Source of the DNA: Bacteroidota bacterium | GTDB lineage: Bacteria; Bacteroidota; Bacteroidia; Bacteroidales; Prolixibacteraceae | Assembly: GCA_024278975.1 (NCBI GenBank) | Contig: JAJRSD010000108.1 | Coordinates: 1 to 60,281, forward strand | Length of the DNA: 60,281 nt | Reading direction: 5' to 3' | The notes under the pieces: model-generated | Told to the model about the DNA's origin: nothing | Database searches by the model: none | The model's input: only the letters and a program-made list of their open reading frames with translations | Shown: in pieces, positions 15,131 through 35,897 of the stretch | Position numbering within the stretch: position 1 is the stretch's first letter | Layout of the letters: every line of letters starts with the position of its first letter | Position numbers and translations under genes: made by a program

Positions 15131-15158
15131 AAAATTACCAATCAAACATAAAACAGAT

Positions 15159-16718: not shown

Positions 16719-16734
16719 TTATTTATTTTTTGAG

Positions 16735-18301: not shown

Positions 18302-18309
18302 TATCTTTG
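18302..18309 (+). promoter_or_regulatory. Candidate -7 box upstream of the DUF1015 gene
   Basis: TATCTTTG fits the Bacteroidota TAnnTTTG -7 consensus, 35 bases before the ATG at 18345. The -33 position has no clear TTTG. Confidence 0.45.
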
Positions 18310-18344
18310 CTTAATTGAAATTATAATAATTTAAAATCTATAAC

Positions 18345-19595: not shown

Positions 19596-19616
19596 TCTGG
19601 ATTTGCAGATTACTTT

Positions 19617-19907
19617 TTATTTGAAAATAATTGTTCTTACAATCTCCTCTCCCTCTTTTTCGTTGATTTTGCGTTTTATCTCATCACGCATCATAAACAG
19701 TTCGTTTTTAACCACCGACGAACTAATTTCAACAAACAGGATTTTTTTACGGATATAAATATTACGTGTGTAGTGTGCAATGGTTTTTCCCAGCAAATTT
19801 TCCCACGATTGAACCACGTCAACTTCTTTTAATTTTCGTTCAATCCGGGTCTCTTTAATGTACTCCCTCATTACCTCGCCCAACGACTGTGTATTACTTC
19901 TTCTCAT
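19617..19907 (-). CDS. dciA: DciA-like DUF721 protein
   Basis: 96 aa, the usual size of short Bacteroidota DUF721 proteins. Marks include SLGEVMREYIKE at the N-terminus, VVQSWENLLGKTIAHYTR and ILFVEISSSVVKNELFMMRDEIKRKINE. DciA proteins assist replicative helicase loading, and the KH-like fold spans the second half. It begins 4 bases inside the end of recF (ATGA-type overlap), so the two are translationally coupled. The family call is firm; helicase loading is inferred from homologues. Confidence 0.8.
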   Translation of the reverse strand: MRRSNTQSLGEVMREYIKETRIERKLKEVDVVQSWENLLGKTIAHYTRNIYIRKKILFVEISSSVVKNELFMMRDEIKRKINEKEGEEIVRTIIFK

Positions 19908-21010
19908 TTTGCTAATTCTACTTTTCCTGCTTCAACATTAAAAATACGAAAATTGATATTCATTTTCTTTATAATCGAGTCTAAATGCTCGCGATTAGTG
20001 TCGGTTAAAAATATCTGCCCAAACTGTTCGCCCGCTACCACCTTGATAATTTGCTCAACCCGGTGCTGGTCTAACTTATCAAACACATCGTCTAATAAAA
20101 GTATTGGTTTTAGTCCCGAAATCTCTTTTACAAAGTCGAATTGTGCTAATTTTAATGCAACGAGATATGTTTTTTTCTGTCCCTGCGAGCCCATCTTTTT
20201 TATTGCAAAATTGCCAATATAATATACCAAATCATCTTTATGAATTCCCTGAGTTGTATATTGTACAGCCCTGTCTTTTTGGAGCGACTCTTTTAACAAC
20301 TCCTCAAAACTTTTTTCATATAAAGCAGATTGATGTATTAAACTTACCTTTTCGTTATCCTGCGAAATAAAAGAGTAATAATATTGAAAAACAGGAACTA
20401 ATTTCTCAACAAATTTCATGCGTTGTTCATGTATTCGGGTTCCATAATCAATTAACTGCATATCCCAAACAGCAAGTAATTCAGCATCGAAATTACGCTC
20501 GGCGGCAAAATGTTTTAATAAGTTATTTCGTTGAAGCAGTGCACGATTATACTTCAGCAAATCAGCAAGATAATTCTGATTGTACTGCGAAATTACGCCA
20601 TCCATAAATTTCCGTCGTTCGTCGCTGCCTCCTAAAATAAGGTTAACATCCGACGGAGTAATCATTACCAGCGGTAACAACCCAATATGTTCGGCAAGTT
20701 TTTTATATATTTTTGAGTTTCGTTTAAACTGCTTTTTCTGCCCTTTTTTTAATCCAACCGAAATCGTTTCATCAGAATCTAACCTTTTATATTTCCCATT
20801 CAGCATAAAAAAAGCCTCATCGTGGTTAATATTTAGCTGGTCGATGGAATTAAAAAAACTTTTACAAAACGATAAATAATAAACTGCATCGAGCATATTT
20901 GTTTTGCCTGCTCCGTTTCTACCAATAAAACAGTTTAATTTTGGCGAAAAACCAACACTTACTTCGCCGATATTCTTATAATTTATAATCGAAATATTCT
21001 CGATATGCAT
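19904..21010 (-). CDS. recF: DNA replication and repair protein RecF
   Basis: 368 aa from MHIENISIINYKNI at 21010. The longer open frame reaching 21223 runs through low-complexity sequence and is not supported. SMC-like ABC ATPase: Walker A GRNGAGKT (30-37), signature region MGSQGQKKTYLVALKLAQF, Walker B PILLLDDVFDKLD near the C-terminus. RecF loads RecA at gapped DNA with RecO and RecR. It is co-transcribed with dciA and divergent from the TPR gene at 21203, a gene order commonly found in Bacteroidota. Confidence 0.95.
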   Translation of the reverse strand: MHIENISIINYKNIGEVSVGFSPKLNCFIGRNGAGKTNMLDAVYYLSFCKSFFNSIDQLNINHDEAFFMLNGKYKRLDSDETISVGLKKGQKKQFKRNSKIYKKLAEHIGLLPLVMITPSDVNLILGGSDERRKFMDGVISQYNQNYLADLLKYNRALLQRNNLLKHFAAERNFDAELLAVWDMQLIDYGTRIHEQRMKFVEKLVPVFQYYYSFISQDNEKVSLIHQSALYEKSFEELLKESLQKDRAVQYTTQGIHKDDLVYYIGNFAIKKMGSQGQKKTYLVALKLAQFDFVKEISGLKPILLLDDVFDKLDQHRVEQIIKVVAGEQFGQIFLTDTNREHLDSIIKKMNINFRIFNVEAGKVELAK

Positions 21011-22019: not shown

Positions 22020-23215
22020 TCATTTCTTTTTCTTCTTTTCGCTAAAAATTGGTGAAGTGTATTCGTTATACAAATCGAATAAAAATTCAATACGTGCATT
22101 TTCTGTTGTAAACGCCTGCGGGCGATAACATAAATCTACTGCTTTATCTAATTCCTGATGTGCTTTTACCAATTTTGGTGGCATTGTTATTGGGTCGTAT
22201 AAATCTGCTAAACTGCTATCCGTAAATTCTGCTCTTACATCTAAAAAAAGTGGTTTTATAAGTTTTAAAATATTTTTTTCTGATGTATAATGTGCACCAA
22301 GATTTCTGCGTTGTACAGGGTTCATTACCGATTGAAATAGCGAACCAAATATTGCTGGCGATATTTTACCCCAATCTAAAGCCGATGCTTCTATTAAAAT
22401 TGCACGCATTTTAGAATTAAACGCTGCAATTGGGAGCATTTCTTTAAACAATCCACCGTTTACATAAGGAAATTGATTTAAATGTTCGTCAAGGTTTTTA
22501 AGTCGTTTTTCGGGCATTGTATTTAAAACTTGAAAGAACTGAGCTATCAAAGCTCCTAAATCACTACCATCTTCGTTGGTCTTTTGCTCAATAAATTCTT
22601 TAAAAATATCTTTTTCAAATATTCCTGTATCATCGGCGAATAAAACAAATAACAGACGAACAAGATAAACTTCTAACGGATGTCCTTCGTAACCAAATTC
22701 TTTTAATTGGTCGTGAAGTTTCCCCATTAATTCAGCAGCTTTTATATTTACAGGGTCTTCCTCTTTGAATGTTCTTTTTTGGTAACCTGCAATAAAACCG
22801 AATAGTTTAACATTTTTATAAAATTCAGAAATATGAAATTCGTGTTCGGTTCTTTCATCAAGGTCGAAAAGTTTAATTCTTTCGAAGTCAGAAACAAGAA
22901 TGTATTTTGGAAGTTCGTGTTCTTTTAGTCCGGGAAATAATCAGTTGCTTACTCAAATGCTTTGTCAAGATTTTTTCCTTTCGATTTATGTTCTATAAGC
23001 AAAGTCCCTTTCCAAAACAAGTCGATAAACCCCTGATTTCCACCTAACTTTTTTACAGGTTTTTCAAATGTCGCTACTCGTCGGCGTGATATTCCGAAAA
23101 CTTCAAAAAAGTCATTCCAGAAACTATCTTTTTCAGCTCGTTCTCTTGTTTCGTCTGCCCACTCATTCGAGAATTTTAATGCTCTGTCATTTATTTCGTT
23201 CCAGCTTAATGCCAT
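22020..23215 (-). pseudogene. Remnant of an MmeI-like (type IIL) restriction-methyltransferase
   Basis: Reading leftward from 23215, the N-terminal nuclease-type domain is recognisable (WNEINDRALKFSNEW; LLIEHKSKGKNLDKAFE). A TAA at 22949-22951 replaces the expected Gln codon, and near 22935 the frame shifts by one base (continuing as FPGLKEHELPKYILVSDFER). The helical spacer follows (AAELMGKLHDQLKEFGYEG, LFADDTGIFE, YVNGGLFKEMLP, RRNLGAHYTSEKNILKLIKP). It then jumps to the extreme C-terminal motif (SLADLYDPITMPPKLVKAHQ) and ends in poly-Lys. The whole methyltransferase core (FxGxG-type and NPPF-type motifs) and the target-recognition domain are deleted, probably more than 400 residues. A dead gene with a nonsense codon, a frameshift and an internal deletion. 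Confidence 0.82.
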
Positions 23216-23262
23216 TCAATTTTTCCTTTATTTTGTTTTATGCAGTATCGTTCTTTGCCTTG

Positions 23263-23393
23263 CCCCTAACGGTTTGGCTATGCGTAGTTTGGCATTTCGA
23301 AACGATAAACTTTCAATTTACCACTAATTTTATTTAATGCTAAAAACTTAAATATTAGGATATTGCCCAAATTACGTATAGCCTTTGTTGCCC
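23263..23393 (-). repeat. attC-like palindromic element A
   Basis: 131-bp imperfect palindrome between the MmeI remnant and hsdR. Read on the minus strand it opens GGGCAACAAAGGCTATACG and closes GCATAGCCAAACCGTTAGGG. The arms pair over about 25 bases with a 2-base asymmetry near the outer end. The internal word TTGAAAGTTTATC is shared with elements at 31387 and 32510. The terminal GTTAGGG is one base off the integron core GTTRRRY. Confidence 0.6.
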
Positions 23394-23457
23394 ACTGGCA
23401 TTTTCTATTTTCAGTCATTTTATCTTTCAAATTTGCTACAAGTTTCATTTTCTCCGT

Positions 23458-23518
23458 GCGTTGGCAAGACATACTCTTCCCGATTTTTTACCGGGATGTG
23501 TATGGCTTACGGGTTGGC
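23458..23518 (-). repeat. Short palindrome C overlapping the hsdR stop
   Basis: On the plus strand the arm GCGTTGGCAAGACATACTC (continuing TTCCCG) lies at 23458-23482, and CCGGGATGTGTATGGCTTAC (continuing GGGTTGGC) at 23491-23518, with an 8-base AT loop. The inner 17 bases of the arms pair with about four mismatches. The hsdR stop codon TAA (23507-23509) is part of this palindrome. It could serve as a transcript end for the restriction operon. Confidence 0.65.
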
Positions 23519-26500
23519 ATTTAATCCCGTTTTCAATATCTCTTTTACAACTCCAAACATCATTGCAGAAAAGTCTTCTTTAAATTCTTTATTGTCCGAA
23601 TACAGTTTGTACAAATCAAAGTTTGTAGTTATGTGTTTCAACAATTCATCGCCTACAACTTTATCACTTGTAATTCTTGCGTTCTGTTCGTCTGAAAATT
23701 TAATTGAGTTTATTAGTTCTTCATTCTTTGCGACATCTTGGGCTATGTTTTCTGCCATTTGTCTAACCTTATCTGCATCTTCAAATTCTGTCCCGTATTT
23801 ATCATTAAATGTTTGCAGAATGTTTGAAAGCCTGTCTATTTCTGGGTCGTTTACTCCACCTCGCATATCTGTTGGAATGGGTTGCAAATCCTCGCCTTGT
23901 TCCATTAAAATATCTGTTGTTGATTCTAACTGCAAACGGTAACTGTCCATATTAATATTTTCCAAAATATCAATAGGCATTTCTATTTCGCCACTACCTA
24001 ATTTGTTCTGCAAATGGTTTAAGAAGATGTAAAGTCGCTCTAAATAAGCATTTTCAAAAGGTACAATTTGAGATAAGAAAATGTATAGACGAACATAGGT
24101 TTTTACTTTTGCTCTAAAATCTGCTTGTTGTTCTTCGTCTAAATCATTTTTGAAAACTTCACTTGCTTCGTCTAAAATGGCGTGTAATTGGTCAACTGGC
24201 ACATTTTCCAATATTTTATCCGAAAATTCTTCTACTTGCTCACAAGAATAAACTTGATAATTGTCTAAAGCATCTTGTAAATCAAATAATTTATTCGGAT
24301 CGGTTGCTTCGCCTAAAATGGTGCTTTCAAAATAAGGTTTAAAAGCTTTTTCAATATCTTCTGAAGTGTTGGCAAAATCCAAAACAAAAGTATCTTGTTT
24401 TAGTGGATGACTTCTGTTTAATCGAGATAAAGTCTGAACAGCATTTACACCACCCAATTTTTTATCTACATACATTGTATGTAACAACGGTTGGTCAAAA
24501 CCTGTTTGATATTTATTTGCTACTAATAAAAATTTGTACTCGTCTTTTTCAAATTCTTCGGGAATATTACCGCTTGGAAAATGATTTAAACTACTTTCTG
24601 TTTCTCCATCTATCTCGCCCGAAAAGGCAACAATTGCTTTGTAAGGACTATTTATTGAACTCAAATATTTATTGAAAGCGTGTTTGTATTGAACGGCTTT
24701 TTTACGACTGCTCGTTACCATCATCGCTTTTGCCTTTCCGCCAATTTTTCTTTTCTGCACTACATTTTCCATAAAATGGTCAATCATTAATTTAGATTTC
24801 TTTTTTATGGCGTGGTCATGTCCTTCTACAAAGGCTTTTAATTTCTTTTGTGCTTTTTTCTTTTCGTAATCAGGGTCGTTTTCTATCTTTTTAAGCAAAG
24901 CATAAAAACTTTGGTAGGTGGTATAATTAAGCAATACATCTTTAATAAACCCTTCTTCAATGGCTTGTTTCATTGAATACAGGTGAAATGCTCTGTATTT
25001 GGTTTTTCCGTCTTGTTCAAATGGAACTCCAAACAACTCTAATGTTTTATTCTTAGGTGTGGCAGTAAAAGCAAAATAACTAGCATTAGGTAAAAGTTTA
25101 CGAGATTTTACAATTGCACGTATTAAATCTTCGCCCGTTACTTCGTCATTTTCGTTTTCATTGTAATTTTCTAAATCGCTTTGTAATTCTTCTTCATCAG
25201 ATACTTTCGATAAAGTTTCGTTCAATTTACGAGCCATTTGACCGCTCAAACTGCTGTGCGCCTCATCTATTATTATTCCAAAATTTGCACCCGGCAAATC
25301 GCCAATTTCTTCAACAATGTGCGGGAACTTCTGAATGGTGGTAATAATAATTTTCTTGCCTTCTTCTAATGCAGATTTCAGTTGCTTACTGCCTTCGGTA
25401 ATGGCTTGAACAACACCTTTTACTTGTTGGTACTGTTTTATATTTTCTCGTATTTGCTTATCTAAAACTCTACGGTCTGTAATTACAATTACTGTATCAA
25501 AAATAGTTTTCGTTCCTGATTTATCGTGCAAACCAACCAATTGATGAGCCAACCAAGAAATGGAATTACTTTTACCCGAACCTGCCGAATGCTGAATTAA
25601 ATATTTTTGACCTGCTCCGTTTTCTTGTGCATCGGCTAATATTTTACGAACAGATGAAAGTTGATGATAGCGTGGAAAAATGAGTTTTTTCTCTTTCTTA
25701 GTTCGCTTTTTCCCTTTACTGTCTCTGTACTCTTTTTCTTCTGTTATGAGTTGAGAATAGTTTTGCAGAATATTCGTTAAACTATCTTTTGTTAAAATTT
25801 CTTTCCATAAATAATCTGTTTTAATACCATTATTTGGCGGATTTCCTGCACCATTGTTATTGCCTTTGTTGAATGGTAAGAAAAACGATTTCTCTCCTTT
25901 GAGATGTGTACACATCCAAACTTCTTCGGTATCTACGGCAAAGTTTACTAATAATCTACCTAAACGGAAAAGTTCTTCGTTGGGGTCTCGGTCTTTTTTG
26001 TATTGTTTTATGGCGTGACTTACATTCTGTTTGGTGAGTTCGTTTTTAAGTTCAAAACTTATTATTGGCAAACCATTGATAAAACTTACAACATCTAAAG
26101 AGTTTTTATTTTTAGTAGAGTAATAAACCTGACGCATTACCGAAAATATATTGGCTGCATAAAGTTCGTTGTTTTTGATGTTGTAATGAGAAACGGGCTT
26201 ATCGTAAAACAAACGCAATTTGGTATCGGTAAAACCATCGGTAAAACCTTTTCGCAAAACTTCAATAATACCTTTTTGCTTTATTTGGTCGTTTATGCGT
26301 TTTATTATTTTCTGCTTGTATAAGTCTTTATGATAGCGTTTTAGTTTTTCTACGGCTTTAGCTTGCGTATTTTCTAAAAACTGAAACAGCAAATCTGCAT
26401 CTACACAATTTACATTGTCGTAATCCTGTGAAGTACGCAATACATAGGCATTTGCAGAAACTAAATAATCTGTTATATGTTGCTCTAAACCGCTCTCTTT

Positions 26501-26521
26501 TGTATTGGTAGTTTTTTTCAT
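23507..26521 (-). CDS. hsdR: Type I restriction enzyme HsdR subunit
   Basis: 1004 aa, full length. The N-terminal nuclease has the PD-(D/E)xK pieces DVVSFINGLPIISFELKN (residues about 143-160). The SF2 translocase follows: Walker A SAGSGKS near 314, IVITDRRVLD, a DEAH box (IIIDEAHSS near 419), FAFTATPKNKT, and motif VI region QTLSRLNRSHP. A C-terminal helical domain binds HsdM. The subunit cleaves DNA after ATP-driven translocation when the HsdS target is unmethylated. It lies last in the operon, 60 bases after the GxxExxY gene, and its last codons run into palindrome C. All motifs seen are intact. Confidence 0.95.
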   Translation of the reverse strand: MKKTTNTKESGLEQHITDYLVSANAYVLRTSQDYDNVNCVDADLLFQFLENTQAKAVEKLKRYHKDLYKQKIIKRINDQIKQKGIIEVLRKGFTDGFTDTKLRLFYDKPVSHYNIKNNELYAANIFSVMRQVYYSTKNKNSLDVVSFINGLPIISFELKNELTKQNVSHAIKQYKKDRDPNEELFRLGRLLVNFAVDTEEVWMCTHLKGEKSFFLPFNKGNNNGAGNPPNNGIKTDYLWKEILTKDSLTNILQNYSQLITEEKEYRDSKGKKRTKKEKKLIFPRYHQLSSVRKILADAQENGAGQKYLIQHSAGSGKSNSISWLAHQLVGLHDKSGTKTIFDTVIVITDRRVLDKQIRENIKQYQQVKGVVQAITEGSKQLKSALEEGKKIIITTIQKFPHIVEEIGDLPGANFGIIIDEAHSSLSGQMARKLNETLSKVSDEEELQSDLENYNENENDEVTGEDLIRAIVKSRKLLPNASYFAFTATPKNKTLELFGVPFEQDGKTKYRAFHLYSMKQAIEEGFIKDVLLNYTTYQSFYALLKKIENDPDYEKKKAQKKLKAFVEGHDHAIKKKSKLMIDHFMENVVQKRKIGGKAKAMMVTSSRKKAVQYKHAFNKYLSSINSPYKAIVAFSGEIDGETESSLNHFPSGNIPEEFEKDEYKFLLVANKYQTGFDQPLLHTMYVDKKLGGVNAVQTLSRLNRSHPLKQDTFVLDFANTSEDIEKAFKPYFESTILGEATDPNKLFDLQDALDNYQVYSCEQVEEFSDKILENVPVDQLHAILDEASEVFKNDLDEEQQADFRAKVKTYVRLYIFLSQIVPFENAYLERLYIFLNHLQNKLGSGEIEMPIDILENINMDSYRLQLESTTDILMEQGEDLQPIPTDMRGGVNDPEIDRLSNILQTFNDKYGTEFEDADKVRQMAENIAQDVAKNEELINSIKFSDEQNARITSDKVVGDELLKHITTNFDLYKLYSDNKEFKEDFSAMMFGVVKEILKTGLNANP

Positions 26522-26581
26522 TGCTAATTCTCTTTATTATAATTTATGGCTTCTTCTGCCACCATTGTCTGAACCTTTGAT

Positions 26582-27001
26582 TTATTTGATTTTTGGATTA
26601 CCTTGATTTTTCTGCATAAACTTTTTATTGATTAAGCGTTTGAATTGAAGACTTTTTGCTCCAAAATTTATTAATAATCCTATCTCTAAATCATAAGCCT
26701 CTAAATAATTTATCGCTTGAGCTAAATGCACATCTTCTAATTTAGTAAGAGCTTTCAATTCTACAGAAACAGCATCTTCAATTAAAAAATCTACTCTACG
26801 AGTTCCAATATGCTGCTGTTTGTAATATATTGGCATTTCGTGTTCCCTGCTAAAAGATAAGTTTTCGTCTGCCATTTCTATGGCTAATGCTCTTTGATAA
26901 ATAACTTCTTGAAATCCATTTCCCAATGCACTATGAACTTTCATTGCACAACCGATAATTTTACCGGTAATATCACTGTATTTATATTTATTATTAATCA
27001 T
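26582..27001 (-). CDS. GxxExxY family protein
   Basis: 139 aa. The defining motif appears as GNGFQEVIYQRALAIEM (residues 27-43), followed by FSREHEMPIYYK, VDFLIEDAVSVELKAL and QAINYLEAYDLEIGLLINFGAKSLQFKR. This is a PD-(D/E)xK-like fold with D, E and K of VDFLIEDAVSVELK. Members are frequent in Bacteroidota and occur with restriction, retron or polysaccharide loci; the activity is unproven. It sits 10 bases after hsdS in the operon, so co-expression with the type I system is likely. Confidence 0.88.
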   Translation of the reverse strand: MINNKYKYSDITGKIIGCAMKVHSALGNGFQEVIYQRALAIEMADENLSFSREHEMPIYYKQQHIGTRRVDFLIEDAVSVELKALTKLEDVHLAQAINYLEAYDLEIGLLINFGAKSLQFKRLINKKFMQKNQGNPKIK

Positions 27002-27011
27002 AGTACATCAT

Positions 27012-28385
27012 TTAATCATTTTCAATCAAAGGTTCAGACCATTTTCTCACATCAATCTTACCCGTTACCGCTTCGGCTATTAAGGCAGTTTTGTACTCTT
27101 CTACTAAGGCTATCTCTTTTTCTATGGTAGATATTATTTTTTCTATTTTGGTGGTTTCGGTTTCTATGTAGTTTACGATTTGTTGTTGTTTTGTTATATT
27201 AGGAATGACTACTTTTATATTCATAATTTCATCTACTAATAAATATGCTTGATTCACAATATATAGTGAAATGCTATCAAAAGAAGCCCTCATATACTTT
27301 GACATTAAGAAGTACCTTGCAAAATCTTCATTTATTGCATTTTTTATAGGTCTAATACACATTGTGTTTTGATTCAAATATGATTTATTTAAATAGTCAT
27401 CAATGATACCAATTTGACCAACTGCTGAATTTAACATTTCAGGTTTACTCCCAACCGTACTAATTATAATATCTCCACGATATAGTCTAACTGATTCAAA
27501 TTCGTCTCTTTGATTATCAAAAGCAATATAAGTTGTCAACTTTTTTATCACACCATTTTTAATATTACTAACCTTAATAATGGGAATTCCATTATCAGAG
27601 AAATCTTCCGATTTAAAGGCAAACCCTTTGAAGTAAACCATTAAGTATTTCAACTTCCGAACCTCCCAATGTTCAGGAATATCACCCAACCACTCAATAC
27701 CGCTTGGTTTCATTTGGGCATTTGGGTTTAAGCCCTTAGTAACGGCTTGGTTTAATATGGCTGCTTTTTGCTCGTCTAATAGTTCTATTAATTGCTTTTT
27801 CTTGCTTATAAATCGGTCTATCTTTTCGAGTTTGTAGTCCAGAAAATTGGCTATGGCGGTTTGTTCTTTAATAGTTGGAATAGTGGTGTAGATAGTTTTC
27901 AAATCATTTCTGTTGAATCTATAAACTTTTACCCCTTTTCCATATTTTTGAAGTTCTTTTGAGAATACTTTTGAAGAGTAGTATAAATACTTTTCATTGA
28001 CTGTATTCTTATTTGGTTTTAATAACATTTGTTCGCCACCTAATAAACCTAAATCATTTCTACGATAAAAAGCGGAATGACCTAAATCTTCAATAGTTTC
28101 TGATGTTGAAATAAAAATAATATCCCCATAATTTACAATTTGAGAATCTTTATAAAATTCATCATTAACATAAAATTTATATTCTTCATCAACTTCATCA
28201 ATTTTGTATGTCTTCCCATATTGTAAAGCAACATATGTACCATTACTTAGTAGTTCATCTTTTTTAAAACTTGAATTACCTCTTACAAATCTACATACAC
28301 CAGTAAGTTTGATAATCGCCCACTCATCAGGAATTTCCCCCAGCCAAGGAATGCCGGAATTTTTATATTTTGGATATTTTTTCAT
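27012..28385 (-). CDS. hsdS: Type I specificity subunit HsdS
   Basis: 457 aa with two target-recognition domains. Each half begins with the same motif (SGIPWLGEIPDEW at about residues 10-22; SGIEWLGDIPEHW at about 228-240) and each ends with a coiled-coil spacer (LDYKLEKIDRFISKKKQLIE; IETETTKIEKIISTIEKEIA). The protein determines the bipartite DNA site read by HsdM and HsdR. The start overlaps the preceding DUF1016 gene by one base (TAATG). No second hsdS or recombinase is nearby, so phase-variable shuffling is not indicated. Confidence 0.95.
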   Translation of the reverse strand: MKKYPKYKNSGIPWLGEIPDEWAIIKLTGVCRFVRGNSSFKKDELLSNGTYVALQYGKTYKIDEVDEEYKFYVNDEFYKDSQIVNYGDIIFISTSETIEDLGHSAFYRRNDLGLLGGEQMLLKPNKNTVNEKYLYYSSKVFSKELQKYGKGVKVYRFNRNDLKTIYTTIPTIKEQTAIANFLDYKLEKIDRFISKKKQLIELLDEQKAAILNQAVTKGLNPNAQMKPSGIEWLGDIPEHWEVRKLKYLMVYFKGFAFKSEDFSDNGIPIIKVSNIKNGVIKKLTTYIAFDNQRDEFESVRLYRGDIIISTVGSKPEMLNSAVGQIGIIDDYLNKSYLNQNTMCIRPIKNAINEDFARYFLMSKYMRASFDSISLYIVNQAYLLVDEIMNIKVVIPNITKQQQIVNYIETETTKIEKIISTIEKEIALVEEYKTALIAEAVTGKIDVRKWSEPLIEND

Positions 28386-29371
28386 TAGTCTTGTTCAAAC
28401 AGATTTAAAATTTCTTGCCATTTTTGTTTTAATAAATTTTTGTCGGGCATTTTTGTTTCATAATCGGCAACTAAGGTTGGCGAAAGATTACGGTTTAGTG
28501 CATATTCAACTACGGTATCGTCTTTGCCTTTGCAAAGTAAAATTCCTATGCTTGGGTTTTCATTTGGTTTGCGTATATCGCGGTCAAGTGCTTCCAAATA
28601 AAAGTTAAGTTGCCCCAAATGTGCAGGTTTAAAAGCTTCAATTTTAAGTTCAATGGCTACCATACAATTAAGACTTCGGTTGTAAAACAGCAAATCAATT
28701 GCAAAATCTTGATTTCCTACTTGCAGGGGATATTCTTCGCCCATAAAAGCAAAATCTCTTCCAAATTCAAGCAAAAATTTTGTTATATTTTGTGCTATTG
28801 CTTTTCTTAGTTCTTTTTCGTGATGTTGCTCGGGCAAGTGCAACAACTCTAATACGTAAGTATCTTTAAATGTATTTGTTATATTTTGTGGCAAAACTCT
28901 CGACAGTGTTGAGAGTTTTTTATTGCTAAGCATTACCCGTTCAAATGTGCTTGCATTTATTTGCCTTTGAAGTTCTCTAAAAGAATATCGCTCTTTAATT
29001 GACATCCTTATATAAAATTCTTTTTCTTCCTCCGACTTTGCTTTTGAAAATATCTCAACATTATGCGACCAAGATAATTCTCGCACCAGAGGGGAGAGTT
29101 TTTCAAAATCTTTATATGTTTCGTAAAATTGCTTCATTCGCCAAATATTTTGAGATGAAAACCCTTTGATATTCGGCTCTGATTTTTGTATAAATGCCGA
29201 CAGTTCTTTTACCACCGACTTACCCCACGCATTGCTTTCTACTTGTTTACTAACATATTCGCCAATATTCCAATAAAGCGATACCAATTCGTGGTTTACA
29301 GCTTTGTATGCTTGTTCTTTGGCTTGTGCAATAAGCTGCGAAATATATGTAAATTGTTTTTTAAGTTCCAT
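28385..29371 (-). CDS. DUF1016 / YhcG-family PDDEXK nuclease-like protein
   Basis: 328 aa. An N-terminal DUF1016 helical domain (LVSLYWNIGEYVSKQ, GFSSQNIWRMKQFYETY, LSWSHNVEIFSKAK) precedes a C-terminal nuclease fold (FAFMGEEYPLQVGNQDFAIDLLFYNRSL, then CMVAIELK), where D and ExK are the predicted catalytic residues. The family is regularly found inside type I restriction operons and defence islands, but its contribution is not established. One-base overlaps at both ends (with hsdM and hsdS) show tight translational coupling. Confidence 0.9.
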   Translation of the reverse strand: MELKKQFTYISQLIAQAKEQAYKAVNHELVSLYWNIGEYVSKQVESNAWGKSVVKELSAFIQKSEPNIKGFSSQNIWRMKQFYETYKDFEKLSPLVRELSWSHNVEIFSKAKSEEEKEFYIRMSIKERYSFRELQRQINASTFERVMLSNKKLSTLSRVLPQNITNTFKDTYVLELLHLPEQHHEKELRKAIAQNITKFLLEFGRDFAFMGEEYPLQVGNQDFAIDLLFYNRSLNCMVAIELKIEAFKPAHLGQLNFYLEALDRDIRKPNENPSIGILLCKGKDDTVVEYALNRNLSPTLVADYETKMPDKNLLKQKWQEILNLFEQD

Positions 29372-31200
29372 TACTCTACAATCTCTTTTAGCAGGTTTTC
29401 AGTTTCGTTTTGCAATGTCAGAATATCATTAGCAATCTCACTCAAGGGTCTTAATGCTTCGTATTTATAAAAATATTTGTTGAAAGGAATTTCATAACCG
29501 ATTTTCATTTTCTTTTTATCGTACCAAGCATCAGGTGCAAAAGGCAATACTTCACGAGCAAAATATTCGTCAATATCTTCTTTCATTGGCACATTTTCGG
29601 TATCCTTTAAATTTTTATCCGATTTTGGGTTGCCTTTTTTGTCGGTAATTATTTTGCCGTTTTCGTCTCTTTCGGGTTGGTGTGTAGTTATTTGGTAAAA
29701 TCCAAAATCTTCGTTATCAAATATTTTAGAGTATTCGTTTCCTGCCTTGCCGTCAGGCAGGTCTTCAAAATAGAAATATAAATCCTGTACTTTTAAAATA
29801 TGCTCTGTATTTAATTGTAATCTTTTACTTCCCAGTGCTTTACGCATTTTAGTATAAAAAGCATCAGAAGAAGCATTTATCAACTGCACTTTTCCTTTTC
29901 GTTTTTCTTCTTTGTTGTTGCTTAATATCCAAACATAAGTAGCAATGCCTGTATTGTAAAACATATCGTTGGGCAGTTGTATGATGCACTCCAATAAATC
30001 GTTTTCTAAAATATATTGTCTTATTCCACTTTCGCCACTTCCTGCATCGCCAGTAAAAAGAGCAGAACCATTTTGCACAGAAGCAATACGGCTACCTCCA
30101 TCTTTGGGGTCTTTCATTTTAGAGAGCATATGCAACATAAACATCAACTGCCCATCGTTGCTACGAGAAGTTAAACAGGCTTTCTCTTTATCGCCTTTAA
30201 AATTTTTAATCTCCAAGTTAAAACGGCTGTCGTTTATTTCAATCTTTTTGGCAGTACCTACATTCAACTCTTTTTGGTCTTCTTTCCAACTTGTGCCATA
30301 AGGTGGGTTGGTAAGCATAAAGTTAAATTTTAGGTCGGGGTCAAAGCCGTATTTACTCAGTGTTGAGCCAAACTGTATTTTGTCGGGGTCTTCGCCTTTT
30401 AGCAGCATATCCGATTTACAAACCGCATACATTTCACCGGTATTTTCTTGTCCGTATAAATGAAATGTTGCTTTCGATTTTATTTCGCCATCAGGGTCGG
30501 TTGCAAATTTTTTAGATTGGGTAAGCATTGCTCCCGAACCTGCACAAGGGTCGTAAACCAAATATGTTCCCTGTTGTATTTTCTCTTTTACAGGAAGATA
30601 AACTAAATGAGTCATTAGTTCAATAATTTCTCTTGGCGTAAAGTGTCGCCCTGCTGCTGCATTTGTTTTCTCGTTAAATCTGCGGAGTAAATCTTCAAAC
30701 ATATAACCCATTGCCATTGGCGATATTTTCTCTGGGCTAAGTTCTACTTTAGGGCTACAAAATTTTTCAATCAACGAAAAAGTAATGCCTGTTTCTTCAA
30801 ACACATCTAACTGGTTACGGAACTTAAATTTTTGAATAATGTCCTGTACATTCTCCGAAAATCCATTGAGATAATCTAAAAAGTTACTATCAATGTTTTT
30901 AGGATCGTCCAACAACTTTTTCATTGTGTATGGCGAAGTGTTGTAAAACTCAAGACCCGAACCGTGTTGCTCACTTGTAAGCATTCCCGAAAGATTATCG
31001 AGTTTGCTTTTAAACTGTTCGTGGGTTTTTAAAACCTTGTCTTTACTTTTTTCTAAAGCCAAGTCCAATCTTCTCAAAACAGTCATTGGTAAAATCACAT
31101 CTTGATATTGATTTTCAAGGTATTTGTTAATCAGCACATCATCGGCTACTGTCCAGATGAAGTTGATAATCGGTTGTAAACTTTGTGTATCTATACTCAT
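29371..31200 (-). CDS. hsdM: Type I methyltransferase subunit HsdM
   Basis: 609 aa. N-terminal helical domain (DVLINKYLENQYQDVILPMT), then RHFTPREIIELMTHLVYLP, the SAM-binding YDPCAGSGAMLTQ near residue 220, and the catalytic NPPYGTSW near 298, the mark of N6-adenine methylation. The C-terminal region contacts HsdS. It modifies the adenine in the HsdS-defined site and protects host DNA. First gene of the operon; the only upstream sequence is palindrome D and element B, so the promoter must lie in or between these repeats. Confidence 0.95.
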   Translation of the reverse strand: MSIDTQSLQPIINFIWTVADDVLINKYLENQYQDVILPMTVLRRLDLALEKSKDKVLKTHEQFKSKLDNLSGMLTSEQHGSGLEFYNTSPYTMKKLLDDPKNIDSNFLDYLNGFSENVQDIIQKFKFRNQLDVFEETGITFSLIEKFCSPKVELSPEKISPMAMGYMFEDLLRRFNEKTNAAAGRHFTPREIIELMTHLVYLPVKEKIQQGTYLVYDPCAGSGAMLTQSKKFATDPDGEIKSKATFHLYGQENTGEMYAVCKSDMLLKGEDPDKIQFGSTLSKYGFDPDLKFNFMLTNPPYGTSWKEDQKELNVGTAKKIEINDSRFNLEIKNFKGDKEKACLTSRSNDGQLMFMLHMLSKMKDPKDGGSRIASVQNGSALFTGDAGSGESGIRQYILENDLLECIIQLPNDMFYNTGIATYVWILSNNKEEKRKGKVQLINASSDAFYTKMRKALGSKRLQLNTEHILKVQDLYFYFEDLPDGKAGNEYSKIFDNEDFGFYQITTHQPERDENGKIITDKKGNPKSDKNLKDTENVPMKEDIDEYFAREVLPFAPDAWYDKKKMKIGYEIPFNKYFYKYEALRPLSEIANDILTLQNETENLLKEIVE

Positions 31201-31241
31201 TTAATTTCTCTATTCCCTATTCAGTTTATTATTCTGTGAGA

Positions 31242-31324
31242 GCGTTGGCAAAAAATTGCTCTTTTGGTTTTTTTGTGTTTGCCTGTGTGTCGCCAAAAAC
31301 CAAATGTGCTATTTGTGCGTTGGC
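31242..31324. repeat. Palindrome D upstream of hsdM
   Basis: The arm GCAAAAAATTGCTCTTTTGG (plus T7G) lies at about 31248-31275 and pairs with CCAAAAACCAAATGTGCTAT (plus TTGTGC) at about 31293-31318. The octamer GCGTTGGC flanks it in direct orientation (31242-31249 and 31317-31324) and also occurs at the start of palindrome C at 23458. It lies in the 5' region of the restriction operon. Confidence 0.6.
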
Positions 31325-31386
31325 TTTCTATTTCTTTATTTTCTTGTAGCAAATTTATCATTCTTTCTCGTTTCTCCTGCTTGTGG

Positions 31387-31573
31387 CTAACGGTTTGTGT
31401 ATGTGGAGTGCGGGATTAAAAGAGATGAACTTTCAAGCTCGCACGGAGCCAATTCGTTTATTCAGTATTTCAAATTTACCGTCAATCGTCAAAGACGAAT
31501 TGGCGGTGTTGCAACGAAGAGCCGCAGTACAAAAAACCGCTGAAACCCGCATTACATATGACACTTTGTTAGC
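31387..31573 (-). repeat. attC-like palindromic element B
   Basis: 187-bp element. The minus-strand start is CGCTAACAAAGTGTCATATG and the end is CACATACACAAACCGTTAGC. The outer arms share a GCGGG-ended stem of about 28 bases, and a second perfect inner stem pairs GCCAATTCGT (31448-31457) with ACGAATTGGC (31495-31504). The word CTTGAAAGTTCATC is shared with elements A and E. The stop codon of the cyclase-like gene (TAA at 31569-31571) lies inside the first arm, as cassette ORFs often end inside attC sites. Confidence 0.6.
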
Positions 31574-32474
31574 GGCTGGATTTGTTTCTATTTCTATAAA
31601 ACTTATCGGTGTACGAGTAATGAATATTTTGTCCCGATATATTTTCATTTAACTCATAAATTTTTGGTTTATTTTTTTCGTCGATATATAAAGATTCATA
31701 CTCCTTTTTAAGCCATAAATATTTTTCGAAAACACGTGGAGTTTCAAAACTAGAATCGAGTCCCTTAATAATTGTGTTTTTAATTTTAGTAAGGCTTTGA
31801 ATTAATTTCTTTTCACTCATTTCTTCCCAAGTTTCAAGAACTTCGAAATATATCATTTGGTGAAAACCGACACTACCATCAGAAAAGCGTTTTAAATATT
31901 GATGATATGGATAACTATGTTTTTCTGATTCTAGCGGATAATTCAACTTTTTAATTAGATTATCCGATAACAATACTCTTGGATAACAAGCAGAATTTGA
32001 TTCCAATTGGTACGCATCTATCAATCCTTGTCCAAATATAATTCCATCAGGTGTATGAATAACATTGCCAATTGTAAGACCTCCCCTAAATAGAATTCCT
32101 TTCATCATTAAAGTAGCACCAACATATGATAGGTTAGAGATTAAAGTAGAAAAACTTTCATTTATATTATTTTCATCACATTCAACAGATACAGCAATTG
32201 AATCAGAAAAAGAAGTACAATTAGTCCTTTCTGAAATATTAAATCCTAGCATATTTCTTTTTTGTGCATCTTCTTCAATTTCTACAAACTGTAAATCCCA
32301 ATTTGATGATGTTTCACGCCCTTTCAAAAACTTTAGTGAATCATAAATTAGATTTATACTTCCAGAACTTCTTTCAGATTTGCGAACAATTTCTTTAAAA
32401 CCTAAAATATCAATAAACGCAACAAGCCTTTCTTGATATTCTTTTTTTTGAATTATTCTTCTCGTTCTAACCAT
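31569..32474 (-). CDS. Nucleotidyl-cyclase-fold protein of unknown function
   Basis: 301 aa, soluble, no signal peptide. Four blocks align with the class III nucleotidyl cyclase fold: LVAFIDILGFKEI (first metal Asp, D22), TSFSDSIAVSVE (second Asp, D91), MKGILFRGGLTIGNVIH and GIIFGQGLIDAYQLES. The pattern resembles (F/I)DIxGF, xxD, RxGxxxG and YGxxxNxAxxLE of true cyclases. Catalytic activity and product nucleotide cannot be told, and residues that set purine choice are not obvious. No effector gene of a cyclic-nucleotide defence system is adjacent. It occupies its own segment between elements B and E in the island. Confidence 0.6.
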   Translation of the reverse strand: MVRTRRIIQKKEYQERLVAFIDILGFKEIVRKSERSSGSINLIYDSLKFLKGRETSSNWDLQFVEIEEDAQKRNMLGFNISERTNCTSFSDSIAVSVECDENNINESFSTLISNLSYVGATLMMKGILFRGGLTIGNVIHTPDGIIFGQGLIDAYQLESNSACYPRVLLSDNLIKKLNYPLESEKHSYPYHQYLKRFSDGSVGFHQMIYFEVLETWEEMSEKKLIQSLTKIKNTIIKGLDSSFETPRVFEKYLWLKKEYESLYIDEKNKPKIYELNENISGQNIHYSYTDKFYRNRNKSSR

Positions 32475-32509
32475 AAGATAATTAATTTATTATGTGCAAC
32501 TTATCTTGC

Positions 32510-32640
32510 ACCTAACGATTGGTATATGGTTTTGTGGCGGTTTTGAAACACAAATCTTTCAACTTACACCGATGTTTATATGTTGTTAAATCGCTCATAA
32601 TTAGCACTTAACCCGCCATAAACTATATACATTGTTGGGC
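32510..32640 (-). repeat. attC-like palindromic element E
   Basis: 131 bp. Read on the minus strand it starts GCCCAAC (exact RYYYAAC) and ends GTTAGGT (exact GTTRRRY), the two outer core sites of integron attC. The arms GCCCAACAATGTATATAG and CATATACCAATCGTTAGGT pair with a 2-base asymmetry, then continue through a GGCGG/CCGCC stem. The inner word GTTGAAAGATTTGTG is shared with A and B. Confidence 0.65.
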
Positions 32641-32783
32641 AACGTTGTTTATTCATTTTTTTTCAATTCGGAGAAGTCAATTTCAGTCTGTACAAATATT
32701 TGTTAATTTGAAATTAGTTCTCAATCAACATTGATTTTTAGTCAATTCAGTTTTTTTCAACTCGTTTTCTGCTTGACAAACTG

Positions 32784-33125
32784 CTATTCTTTTTGGCCAG
32801 TCTTTTTATTTTCTACATTATCTGTTTCTTTTACTATTACTCCTTCTTTATTAATCGCTTTGTCAATCGCCGCTCTCAATTGAAGTAATTCTGTTAAGTT
32901 GAATGAATTCGTTGTTTTCCATTCTTTTCCTTTTTTATAGACTTTTTCAATTTTAAAATCTTTTGCTATAAATTTCCCAAATTCTCCTTGTTTTTCATTT
33001 TCCCAAACAGTCACTTTTGATTTCCCAACTATGTAAGTTGCTTTTGGTTTATCTTGAGAATAACTTGTTAATACGAAGCAAAGAATCGCTACGCTGATTC
33101 CGATAAATCTCATAAATGTTCTCAT
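32784..33125 (-). CDS. Small exported protein with PC4-like motif
   Basis: 113 aa. An N-terminal signal peptide (MRFIGISVAILCFVLTSYSQ) suggests export; the start may be M1 or M5. The mature part has VGKSKVTVWENEKQGEFGKF, then FKIEKVYKKGKEWKTTNSFN and LTELLQLRAAIDKAI. This order (Trp-Glu-Asn strand, Lys-rich turn, then a helix with LRAAID) recalls the PC4/p15 single-strand nucleic-acid binding fold, but an exported PC4 is unexpected, so this is a weak comparison. It is flanked by inverted GTTGGGC-type ends (32634 and 33331). Function unknown. Confidence 0.6.
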   Translation of the reverse strand: MRTFMRFIGISVAILCFVLTSYSQDKPKATYIVGKSKVTVWENEKQGEFGKFIAKDFKIEKVYKKGKEWKTTNSFNLTELLQLRAAIDKAINKEGVIVKETDNVENKKTGQKE

Positions 33126-33322
33126 AATTTTTAATTTTTAGTTTAAGATTTTATTTTTCTTTTTTTTCGTTAAAAAATTAATAAATCCGTGTTTGTTGAG
33201 TCGAATGAAAAGTCTGGATGTGTCATTTTGTTCTTCTTATTTTTCAATATTCGTCCATGTTTTATTTCTCGACTAATTCTAAATTTAAAATCAATGTTTA
33301 TGGTTGTTTAAATCCTTTTTCC

Positions 33323-33352
33323 AATGTTGCCCAACGGTAATATATATGTAAT
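33323..33352 (-). repeat. Isolated attC-like end at the right border of the island
   Basis: On the minus strand this reads CATATATATTACCGTTGGGC followed by AACATTG. GTTGGGC fits GTTRRRY and the preceding CC matches the ends of A and B. No complete partner arm is present, so it resembles a half site or an insertion boundary. The galM stop lies 11 bases away. It is an inverted near-copy of the outer end of element E. Confidence 0.5.
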
Positions 33353-33362
33353 ACCCCAAAAC

Positions 33363-34484
33363 CTATTTAGCCGAAAACTTATAAATAGTAGTAGAATGAA
33401 GTGTTTCGCCGGGGTTTAATAGTGTTGATGGGAAATTGGGTTGATTTGGACTGTCAGGATAATGTTGAGTCTCTAAACAAAAACCTGTTCGTTTTGTATA
33501 TGCTTTTCCCGACTTCCCAATTTCAGTTCCTTTTAAATGATTTCCGGTGTAAAATTGTATGCCCGGCTCGGTTGTAAAAACTTCCATATAACGCCCGCTC
33601 TCGGGTTCGTAGGCACTTGCACAAAAAGCCAGTTCATCGGCATTTTTATTAATTACATAGTTAAAATCGTACCCAACTCCGTAAACCAACATTTGGTTAT
33701 CAGAATCAATACGTTCGCCAATAGTATGCGGAGTTGTAAAATCTAAATCTGTTCCCCTGATATCTACAATCTCTCCGGTTGGAATCATCTCAGAATTTAC
33801 CGGAGTAGATTTATCAGCGTTTATCACCAAAACATGGTCGAGAATATCACCATTTCCTTCGCCATGCAAATTAAAATAACTATGGTTAGTAATGTTTATG
33901 TGACAGGGTTTGTCGGTTGTAATTTCGTAATCAATTTTCAGCTCATTATCATCGGTTAAAGTGTAAGTTACTTTTGCCGTTTTATTACCCGGAAAACCAA
34001 ATTCGCCATCAGCACTTTTCAATGTAAACACAGTTACATTCCCACTTTTTTCGTAATCCCAAACTTTTCGGTACCAACTGTCGGGACCTGAATGCAAACA
34101 AGCTTTACTATTATTTACAGGAAAATTATAAGTTTCGTTACCAATGGTAAAACTGGCATTGGCAATACGGTTTGCAAACGGACCAACCACTGCACCGTGG
34201 CTTGCTCCATTTTTCTGATAATCGGCAATAGATTTAAATCCCAACATAACATCAGCAAATTCACCCTTTTTATCGGCTACATAAATCGAAACAATTTTAG
34301 CACCATAATTTGTTAGTGTTACAATCATACCATTTTTATTTTCCATGGTAAACATACGGGTTGTTTTTCCGTCGATTACGCTTTCGAAATCAGCTTTTGA
34401 ATAAGGCATATTAATCTCTTTTTTATTTGTTGATGTGCAGGCAGCAAGAACTGCGATTAGTAAAATAAGGCTTAGATTTTTCAT
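33363..34484 (-). CDS. galM: Aldose 1-epimerase lipoprotein
   Basis: 373 aa from MKNLSLILLIAVLAACTS at 34484. The lipobox LAAC (Cys about 16) indicates a lipoprotein, placing the enzyme in the envelope; an upstream ATG at 34541 would spoil the signal. The GalM barrel is marked by TLTNYGAKIVSIYV, PFANRIANASF, the catalytic His in INITNHSYFNLHG, and the C-terminal catalytic Glu in TGFCLETQHYPDSPNQPNFP. It interconverts alpha and beta anomers of sugars released by periplasmic glycoside hydrolases. First conserved gene right of the accessory island. Confidence 0.93.
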   Translation of the reverse strand: MKNLSLILLIAVLAACTSTNKKEINMPYSKADFESVIDGKTTRMFTMENKNGMIVTLTNYGAKIVSIYVADKKGEFADVMLGFKSIADYQKNGASHGAVVGPFANRIANASFTIGNETYNFPVNNSKACLHSGPDSWYRKVWDYEKSGNVTVFTLKSADGEFGFPGNKTAKVTYTLTDDNELKIDYEITTDKPCHINITNHSYFNLHGEGNGDILDHVLVINADKSTPVNSEMIPTGEIVDIRGTDLDFTTPHTIGERIDSDNQMLVYGVGYDFNYVINKNADELAFCASAYEPESGRYMEVFTTEPGIQFYTGNHLKGTEIGKSGKAYTKRTGFCLETQHYPDSPNQPNFPSTLLNPGETLHSTTIYKFSAK

Positions 34485-34691
34485 TTCTTTAAGATTAGAT
34501 TTAAGATAAATAGTATCAAGACACAAGTCTGAAAAAAACATTCTGTTGTATCAAATTTTTATATTTTCAAAGGTAGTAAATCAATATTCAAAAATATAAT
34601 GAATACACTTCTTATAACTATTTCGAAACTAATTTCTATTTGTCGTTGATATTCTACAAATTGCGCCTGTATTTATATAACTACGTAAATT

Positions 34692-35897
34692 ATGGAGTCG
34701 ATAAAAGAGATATATAAAATTGGTCATGGTCCGTCGAGTAGCCATACAATGGGACCGAAAAAGGCGGCAGAACGTTTTCTCGCAAAAAACAAAAAAGCAA
34801 ATCGTTTTGAGGTTATTTTATATGGAAGTCTGGCTGCCACCGGGAAAGGTCATTTAACCGACCGCGCCATTGAACAGACACTCGAAAAATACGAATTGGA
34901 GATAATCTGGAAACCTGATATTTTTTTACCAAAACATCCGAACGCACTGAATCTTAAAGCTTTCGACAAGCAAAACAATTTACTCGACGACTGGACCGCA
35001 TACAGCGTTGGCGGCGGTTCTGTTATCGATGATTCTTCAAAATCGGAAACTAAAAATATTTATCCTCACCAACATCTTACTGAAATTTTAGAGTGGTGCA
35101 ACCAAAATGGAACACAACTTTGGGAGTATGTTGAAGAGTTTGAGGGAAAGGAAATATGGAACTTTTTAGAGGAGATATTGGAAGTAATGTTTGCAAGCAT
35201 AAAAAGAGGATTAGATGGCGATGGCGTTTTACCCGGCGGATTAAAACTTCCCCGCAAAGCACAATCTTTCTTTCTGAAAGGGAAAAGTTATGCCACACCA
35301 TTTAAACGGCGGTCGCAGCTTTTTGCTTATGCACTGGCAGTTTCGGAAGAAAATGCATCGGGCGGGAAAATAGTAACTGCGCCAACCTGCGGAGCAAGCG
35401 GAGTTCTGCCGGCGATACTGTTATATGCAAAAAAGATATTCAAATCTGATAAAAAGTCAATTATAAGAGCACTTGCAACTGCCGGATTAATAGGAAATAT
35501 TGTAAAAACAAATGCCTCTATTTCGGGTGCCGAAGTTGGTTGTCAGGGCGAAGTAGGAACTGCGTGTGCTATGGCATCAGGCGCGGCAACACAAATTATG
35601 GGCGGCACAATTTACCAGATTGAATATTCTGCCGAAATGGGGATAGAACACCACCTCGGATTAACTTGCGACCCCGTTGCAGGACTGGTACAAATTCCTT
35701 GTATAGAGCGAAATGCCTTTGCCGCAGAACGCGCAGTGGCACACAATAATTATGCACTTCTAACTGACGGCAGACACCGTATTAGTTTCGACGAAGTGAT
35801 TGCAACAATGTATAAAACCGGAATAGATTTACAGAGTCAGTACCGGGAAACGTCGCTTGGTGGTCTGGCAAAATTCGATGCTTTACCAAAATGTTAG
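34692..35897 (+). CDS. sdaA: Iron-sulfur L-serine dehydratase, single chain
   Basis: 401 aa. The beta part opens with GHGPSSSHTMGP, which binds substrate. The alpha part holds the cluster cysteines: TAPTCGASG, VGCQGEVGTACAMASG, and HHLGLTCDPVAGLVQIPC with CIERNA. The enzyme converts L-serine to pyruvate and ammonia with an oxygen-labile [4Fe-4S] centre, in keeping with an anaerobic life style. The chain is complete, and it may be co-transcribed with the DUF2891 gene that follows. Confidence 0.93.
   Translation: MESIKEIYKIGHGPSSSHTMGPKKAAERFLAKNKKANRFEVILYGSLAATGKGHLTDRAIEQTLEKYELEIIWKPDIFLPKHPNALNLKAFDKQNNLLDDWTAYSVGGGSVIDDSSKSETKNIYPHQHLTEILEWCNQNGTQLWEYVEEFEGKEIWNFLEEILEVMFASIKRGLDGDGVLPGGLKLPRKAQSFFLKGKSYATPFKRRSQLFAYALAVSEENASGGKIVTAPTCGASGVLPAILLYAKKIFKSDKKSIIRALATAGLIGNIVKTNASISGAEVGCQGEVGTACAMASGAATQIMGGTIYQIEYSAEMGIEHHLGLTCDPVAGLVQIPCIERNAFAAERAVAHNNYALLTDGRHRISFDEVIATMYKTGIDLQSQYRETSLGGLAKFDALPKC

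Follow-up and report, generated by a model that had tools for sequence, protein, structure and literature searches.

A restriction-gene cluster in a Prolixibacteraceae genome as the probable outlying cassette array of an integron-like system with a Xer-like recombinase

The window analysed here is the whole 60,281-nucleotide stretch of contig JAJRSD010000108.1 (assembly GCA_024278975.1; Bacteroidota, Prolixibacteraceae). Its subject is a cluster of minus-strand genes divided into units by three palindromes, A, B and E. A first-pass annotation made from the letters alone took this cluster for an integron cassette array without an integrase, either a cluster of attC sites lacking integron integrases (CALIN) or a Bacteroidota element that had converged on the integron design. 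The array begins just behind a conserved gene, and restriction genes are its recognisable cargo. Each site has a 5′ arm (R″) and a 3′ arm (R′). Read along the minus strand, the features are as follows.

33363-34541, minus: flanking chromosomal gene, outside the array, conserved in the genus
33326-33335, minus: lone R′ arm GTTGGGCAAC, start of cassette 1, about 27 bases past the end of gene 33363-34541
32784-33125, minus: open reading frame (ORF) of cassette 1, 113 amino acids
32507-32643, minus: site E (palindrome 32510-32640), attC-like hairpin with a covarying inner stem; R″ GTTGCCCAAC at 32643-32634, R′ GTTAGGTGCA from 32516
31569-32474, minus: ORF of cassette 2, 301 amino acids
31382-31577, minus: site B (palindrome 31387-31573), attC-like, long type; R″ AGCCGCTAAC at 31577-31568, R′ GTTAGCCACA from 31391
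23507-31200, minus: B-A cargo, a type I restriction operon that includes genes for a YhcG-type nuclease and a GxxExxY protein, as given in the next five lines
29371-31200, minus: HsdM
28385-29371, minus: DUF1016/YhcG nuclease
27012-28385, minus: HsdS
26582-27001, minus: GxxExxY PD-(D/E)XK protein
23507-26521, minus: HsdR
23261-23396, minus: site A (palindrome 23263-23393), attC-like hairpin; R″ AGTGGGCAAC, R′ GTTAGGGGCA from 23270
22020-23215, minus: remnant of a type IIG (MmeI-type) restriction-methylase gene, split between the open frames 22949-23215 and 22020-22727

These features form four co-oriented units (33334-32516, 32515-31391, 31390-23270 and a truncated last one). The 113-residue protein falls in no NCBIfam or Pfam family (best Pfam match at relaxed threshold, E 0.39), and the 301-residue protein in none of NCBIfam, Pfam (relaxed threshold included) or PADLOC; for the latter, a PDB sequence search returned two pentatricopeptide chains only, via short stretches, none passing singly. 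The five proteins between B and A were named from NCBIfam, Pfam and PADLOC, several NCBIfam scores lying under the curated cut-offs. Scanned as separate pieces with Pfam and PADLOC, the MmeI remains match MmeI_N, MmeI_hel and MmeI_C; the middle domains were not found, and a scan of the window with the site model R1 (see below) places no site after this gene. An Rfam scan of the window gave nothing at gathering thresholds, and Pfam scans of nine window ORFs found no transposase as a source of the palindrome ends. On either side of the type I operon, inside the B-A unit (23450-23520 and 31237-31330), there are short palindromic stretches in which GTGCGTTGGC / GCGTTGGC motifs recur; read by eye, they are possibly a separate boundary or relic site.

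Much of the first-pass description of the locus stands, with corrections. The units that it named are present, export of the small protein being putative; its "cyclase-fold" label for another finds no backing in Pfam at relaxed threshold or in PDB sequences. Site E has the exact RYYYAAC and GTTRRRY ends reported for it. The minus-strand opening (C/G)AACAA, attributed to all three palindromes, does not extend to B, which opens TAACAA, and the lone GTTGGGC placed at 33331 starts at 33335 on the minus strand.

All three palindromes share one layout: a 5′ arm ending in AAC, a short unpaired spacer, one half of an inner stem, a long middle with a TTGAAAG-type word, the other stem half, a spacer and a 3′ arm starting with GTT. 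A and E are identical in 82 of 136 aligned columns, counted from the list of invariant columns. The covariance model R1, built from A, E and a shortened B, scores A at 141.8 bits and E at 129.8 bits, and a second model, R2, built from 12 sites of the source genome, finds E at 7.1e-22; A was used in building R1, and E in building both models. Searching the 4.65-Mb source genome with R1 gave 17 matches at E ≤ 1, with 15 below 1e-4, A, B and E included. Twelve of these 15 strong sites are grouped: three in the window, three on contig C81, and two each on C98, C44 and C105. Grouped sites are spaced at 0.7-1.1 kb on C81, C98 and C44 and at 9 kb on C105; within the window, E and B are 1.1 kb apart and B and A 8.1 kb. 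The remaining three are single. The first-pass annotation had proposed that its reading would fail if the elements lay genome-wide without cargo between them; they do occur elsewhere, the strong ones mostly two or three to a contig, a pattern of site positions, since intervening content was read in the window only.

Comparison of sites supports a conserved structure. The alignment used takes in 12 of the 15 strong sites, without B, the C83 site and the second one on C44. Within it, compensatory changes on both sides keep the pairing at 12 of 15 inner-stem pairs. Pairing holds in 90.6% of inner-stem cells and in 82.2% of all structure cells, and falls to 31-39% when partners are slid by 1-3 columns; the covariation score is likewise 0.600 against 0.076-0.130 with slid partners. 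Double-changed cells number 67 against a shuffled mean of 29.3, a value reached in none of 500 shuffles. Counting pairs with any double change, a cruder measure, gives a weaker contrast (17 versus 14.3 shuffled, reached in 17 of 500). RNAalifold recovers the same inner stem unprompted. Together with the genome matches and with the lone-end complement described below, the covariation bears out the earlier claim that A, B and E are real, homologous elements lying on the minus strand behind genes of the same strand. The outer arm behaves differently, as only 66.7% of its cells pair with the adjoining arm. The sites resemble classical attC sites in being imperfect hairpins with unpaired bases on one arm. 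attC sites carry extrahelical bases, and two mismatched 5′-arm columns (25 and 30), with A opposite a non-pairing base in the rows read, may be reminiscent of them.

No PF00589 recombinase matches the window's 60-kb contig. Three PF00589 matches occur in the genome, and one of them, on the 4.9-kb contig C78, is a tyrosine recombinase of 354 residues. This contig ends inside a B-like site, downstream of the recombinase and on the same strand. At 97 bp past the recombinase stop lies GTTATAGCAC, and the 5′ arm of the contig-end site, GTGCTATAAC, is its exact 10-base complement. At the level of sequence, the layout is that of integrase, attI and first cassette. It recurs in relatives, for in 14 of 16 loci a GTT stands at +86 to +105 past the integrase stop with a 9-base complement 0.5-3.2 kb further on, which reproduces a classical integron feature, the attI insertion point beside the integrase gene. 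Alignments of the integrase region end at the attI-like GTT in several genome pairs and run on in others.

Sites of this type are linked to one recombinase family. R2 matches 34 of 37 genus genomes at E ≤ 0.001. The family's loci in GTDB were sampled as the best 80 of 560 confirmed stretches, chosen for the recombinase alone. Across them, 86 sites at E ≤ 0.01 all lie on the recombinase strand, 85 downstream (309 kb) and one upstream (668 kb), and at E ≤ 1 the downstream share is 96 of 98. At least one site is present at 29 of the 80 loci; if only loci with 1 kb or more of sequence downstream are counted, the share is 29 of 49. In 24 of the 80 the contig ends less than 500 bp from the recombinase gene. 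Twenty stretches from 12 relatives, mostly picked for sites already found near a recombinase, hold 97 sites (E ≤ 0.1) in 11 genomes, all on the recombinase strand. A further 20 loci, from more distant relatives and Xer, have 17 of 21 sites downstream on the recombinase strand. R2 found no site at 30 canonical integron integrase (IntI) loci or at the two other recombinases of the source genome (about 1.5 kb of flank each), and none at three Xer loci of 10 kb (L211-L213).

Should cassettes move as circles that close at G^TT, each site would be expected to have a 5′ arm that complements the start of its own cassette, which is the 3′ arm of the previous site. All 97 sites, as placed by the model alignment, have a 5′ arm ending in AAC and a 3′ arm starting with GTT. 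Among 86 consecutive pairs in the arrays of 11 relatives, the 5′ arm matches its own cassette start at 6-7 of 7 variable positions in 53, and the adjacent 3′ arm in none (mean 2.44). The mean match to the cassette start is 4.77, compared with 2.42 for permuted starts (standard deviation 0.145; duplicated cassettes make some pairs non-independent). A number of the failing pairs bridge a large gap that could hide a missed site, but not all do. In the window, the 5′ arm of E, GTTGCCCAAC, is complemented exactly, over 10 bases, by the lone end GTTGGGCAAC at 33335; with nine GTTs in the relevant 722 bases, the chance of this is about 9/4^7 = 0.0005. Cassette content is similarly ordered, the longest ORF lying on the site strand in 66 of 69 genus-array cassettes (one opposite, two without an ORF).

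The first-pass annotation had also looked to related strains for exchange of single units, and the cleanest cases in relatives are in line with it. In these, two near-identical copies of a cassette lie in one array beside different neighbours, each end no more than 8 bases from a called R′ core (G037 52555/8981, G037 41157/21362 and G041 19193/13925). A stretch common to G068 and G067 is 98.5% identical, their integrase regions being 87.8% identical, which suggests recent transfer. Two further arrays show repeats of other kinds. In L163 (G036 C1), three equal-scoring sites exactly 2477 bp apart mark a cassette block in tandem triplicate, among many nested near-identical repeats. In L149-L152 (G037 C1), a cassette seems to be broken by a 1.33-kb repeat, probably an insertion sequence, whose ends are of the TGTAAGCTTCCC type; an intact copy of this cassette lies elsewhere in the array.

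These observations bear on one alternative, that the sites are dispersed palindromic repeats (like repetitive extragenic palindromes or miniature inverted-repeat transposable elements) or terminators that merely follow genes. Such repeats would account for palindromes 3′ of genes and for single copies away from arrays. A complement to the 5′ arm, one gene further upstream, would not be expected of them, and an 85-to-1 downstream placement at one recombinase family and a stem that varies yet pairs also speak against them. This explanation is extremely improbable, and the least credible of the three alternatives weighed here.

The recombinase family is distinct from classical integron integrases. 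Against the integron-integrase model TIGR02249, the C78 enzyme gives a two-piece match with the middle missing, below cut-off; the cut-off is reached by none of six family members tested and by no protein of the source genome. Where IntI4 (2A3V) has 73 residues, the C78 enzyme has 30. The catalytic boxes are 91-92 residues apart in 30 of 30 genus and family members and in 73 of 80 GTDB members (the other seven lack readable boxes), compared with 133 in 23 of 30 canonical IntIs (the other seven unreadable) and 98 in Xer. The family thus lacks the IntI-specific insert near patch III, a feature of classical integrases. In a tree, twelve canonical IntIs form one clade separate from the family and the Xer rows form their own; the branch uniting the family has a Shimodaira-Hasegawa-like approximate likelihood ratio support of 88 (a quick method, with long branches), and the deeper order and the position relative to IntI are unsure. 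Many members carry an N-terminal extension. A HARP-like character of this extension gained no support in Pfam or in a PDB profile search (best E 0.1 in the latter), and no claim is made for it.

By sequence, the closest enzymes of known structure are the archaeal Xer-like 4a8e (145 bits) and IntI4 2a3v (137.6 bits). The C78 enzyme passes the cut-off of the NCBI XerA model. For NF040815, a model named "site-specific tyrosine recombinase/integron integrase", it scores 233.8 bits against a cut-off of 220, and four of six members tested pass. This likeness to archaeal XerA and XerC/D raises a second alternative. Xer resolves chromosome dimers at dif, whose core is 28 bp, and the units could be Xer-dif-like modules moved by housekeeping XerC/XerD, with the linked recombinase incidental. 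The Xer-like character of the family, its best PDB match and the XerA score fit this proposal. However, linkage is to the insert-less family, the three Xer loci have no site, and Xer differs in box spacing (98 versus 91-92) and in forming its own clade. In addition, the sites are hairpins of about 130-200 nucleotides with covarying stems, unlike a dif core, and an attI-like junction lies behind the gene of the family recombinase. Movement by XerC/XerD is accordingly regarded as very unlikely.

The third alternative is the canonical CALIN, laid down by a classical IntI since lost, one of the two options in the first-pass annotation. In its favour, arrays, attI and attC are laid out alike, E has canonical cores, and canonical IntI above cut-off is common in the phylum (107 of 392 sampled genomes), being frequent in its other classes. 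However, the source genome has no TIGR02249 match over cut-off, and within the window's class a canonical-level best IntI match occurs in G176 only (genome rows). R2 finds no site at the 30 canonical IntI loci, whose flanks are short, and the sites sit behind the other enzyme. Nor do the cores of family arrays follow the canon, as GTTRRRY is found in 7 of 97 sites and RYYYAAC in 5 of 97; the family R′ reads GTTRNNN, with arms of 9-10 bp. A canonical CALIN is a shade less probable again than movement by XerC/XerD. The annotation's other option, a Bacteroidota element that converged on the integron design, fits best. Its "integrase-less cassette array" holds for the integron design and for the missing neighbouring integrase, and gives way elsewhere in the genome, where C78 has a dedicated recombinase with an attI-like site and a first cassette.

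The window cluster is thus very probably an outlying cassette array of a Bacteroidota integron-like system in which a Xer-like, insert-less recombinase captures circular cassettes. The sequence evidence for this reading lies in homologous covarying sites, linkage to a recombinase, complementarity to cassette starts, duplicates bounded by cores, an attI-like junction and the missing IntI insert. As in integrons and CALINs, there are a tyrosine recombinase with an adjoining attI-like point, co-oriented cassettes each ending in a foldable attC-like site, a deduced G^TT crossover, an R″ complementary to its own cassette start, and clusters away from the integrase. Unlike integrons, the enzyme has no IntI-specific insert (91-92 versus 133 residues between boxes) and often has an N-terminal extension, R′ is GTTRNNN and not GTTRRRY, the integrase gene is co-oriented with its array, and the central part of the site is long and partly conserved. 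Judged by these features, the system appears to work like an integron and is outside the classical family by two tested features, the insert and the cores.

A working scheme follows the integron model. The family recombinase would be the catalyst, acting on single strands and cleaving between G and TT. It would capture circular cassettes at the attI-like G^TT, which stands some 86-105 bp past the recombinase stop codon, and could excise them or insert them where the attC-like hairpin closes each cassette; within the circle, R″ and the cassette's own start would be complementary. Because the inner stem varies in sequence yet keeps its pairing, its recognition probably depends on the shape of a folded single strand, as in integrons. 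The window array may be the work of the C78 enzyme or of a relative, with partial decay since; the C78 recombinase would be its natural candidate in trans.

Several observations weigh against this reading. In the window, complementarity is perfect (10/10) for cassette 1 only. The R″ arms of B and A each match the preceding R′ at 7 of 10, and the R″ of B matches the R′ of A better (8). Since these arms reach only 7 of 10, the inner units appear to have been rearranged, to have decayed or to have lost sites; other clusters of the genome are also imperfect in complementarity. The 8-kb type I unit is far above the median site spacing of 1.6 kb, which was computed from 69 spacings under 4 kb only; by the 4-kb limit given in a passage of PMC9668308, a CALIN has two or more attC sites closer together than this and no integrase nearby, a distance that E and B keep and B and A exceed, and the sites are not canonical attC. 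The hairpin energies are only mildly unusual, with DNA-fold z values of -1.0 (A), -2.0 (E) and -1.5 (B); folding energy alone is insufficient to establish the sites, which were therefore tested by comparison. Among 17 duplicated stretches (G036 left out), 11 end and 7 start at GTT, with a chance of 0.165 per end; with G036 included there are 54 duplicate pairs, of which 48 end and 26 start at GTT. Of the remaining duplicates, some look like insertion sequences and others begin within the preceding site. The other strand carries three sites in L197 (G114) and a single one in L200; at G064 C3 1483349-1491139 an R2 site lies upstream of the recombinase. R2-negative GTDB loci with at least 2 kb of downstream sequence number 11; six are gut loci with compact sites, described below, and the other five (L090, L097, L101, L138, L145) are unexplained.

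The gene behind which the array begins is conserved among relatives. In the genus, 34 of 37 genomes carry a match to gene 33363-34541 at E ≤ 1e-100, counting paralogues, and its neighbour 34692-35897 lies beside the homologue in 14 of 19 relatives' loci compared. None of the array-side window genes was found in those 19 loci, and no clean empty site was obtained from them. In 18 relatives scanned (L236-L246 left out), the flanks of about 1.5 kb around the homologue contain no R2 site. A second outlying array, comparable to the window's, is seen at G062 C1 187691-221602. Its sites, seven or more, share one strand and lie a long way from the integrase at 2552801.

The family is widespread. Its profile matches 112 of 392 sampled phylum genomes at E ≤ 1e-80, which suggests a large reservoir of unread cassettes. 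Cargo was surveyed in 110 cassette proteins from genus arrays (ORFs of at least 80 amino acids on the site strand; two repeat copies removed from 112). It is mixed, transposases included, with 85 Pfam families; PADLOC gave 107 families at 1e-5, among the matches listed SduA, AbiLi and type II methyltransferases.

A broader proposal is that Bacteroidota host a second integron lineage, with a Xer-like enzyme that lacks the IntI domain and often has a private N-terminal domain, with structured sites and an attI, present in more than a quarter of sampled phylum genomes, overlooked, and the engine of the gut arrays considered below. On balance we regard this as probable. The lineage may have escaped notice because searches for integrons depend on the IntI insert and on canonical cores. 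Passages of PMC9668308 and PMC8138268 describe the IntI-specific domain as necessary for integron recombination, and part of a survey, PMC9024848, names a single complete integron in Bacteroidetes proper. Among the matches listed in the openly licensed PMC literature there is no report of insert-less Bacteroidota integrons, which weakly supports their absence from print. Insert-less IntI relatives had been noticed before, because a passage of PMC8138268 states that the insert is not fully conserved in an integron-like subgroup of tyrosine recombinases; this statement and the opposite-strand sites of L197 and L200 lower the probability of a second lineage. If the proposal is true, cassette capture would be extended within Bacteroidota, and the role of the IntI domain and the origin of integrons from Xer-like recombinases would become directly testable.

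Six GTDB loci without R2 sites (L084, L085, L087, L095, L100, L117) come from the gut genera Bacteroides, Phocaeicola, Parabacteroides and Mediterranea, with arrays at about 11100-20800. Their compact site is about 45 nucleotides long and ends in CCATT(A/G), with R′ reading ATTR in place of GTTR. These sites were found by a text pattern and a stem filter, not by a model, and a few of the 47 candidates are probably chance. The circle signature is present, with the cassette start matched at 6 of 6 positions in 23 of 41 pairs and the adjacent arm in one of 41; the mean match is 4.71, versus 2.83 when permuted (standard deviation 0.17). The longest ORF is on the site strand in 39 of 46 cassettes (five opposite, two without an ORF). 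The 45 proteins gave matches to 20 Pfam families, immunity proteins among them; 44 of the 45 ORFs have less than 41% guanine plus cytosine, and repeated intergenic motifs were seen in three of the six loci.

The gut loci resemble the recombinase-associated acquired interbacterial defence (rAID) clusters described in part of PMC12247911, with a tyrosine recombinase upstream of co-oriented, short, low-GC genes, several of them for immunity proteins, and with intergenic motifs, seen repeated in three of the six. Here, unlike in that description, the motifs between genes behave like compact attC-like sites that bear the circle signature, and elsewhere in Bacteroidota members of the enzyme family go with other cargo and longer sites. 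The likeness is one of description. The window itself does not show the rAID features, as its recognisable cargo is restriction genes and no recombinase is adjacent. A passage of PMC12247911 leaves the mechanism of rAID biogenesis open; from the sequences, rAID is likely the gut branch of the Bacteroidota integron-like system. If so, this would provide a mechanism for gain and duplication of immunity genes in gut rAID arrays.

Relatives of the recombinase extend to other settings. G114 C1 carries twelve near-identical copies of a distant relative of 294 amino acids, some about 2.5 kb apart, with the other-strand R2 sites of L197 nearby. Relatives also occur in records titled as other phyla, namely metagenome-assembled genomes of Rhodobacteraceae (L142), Nitrospirae (L138) and Fermentibacterota (L068), by transfer or mis-binning; in L142 and L068, sites lie downstream of the recombinase relative.

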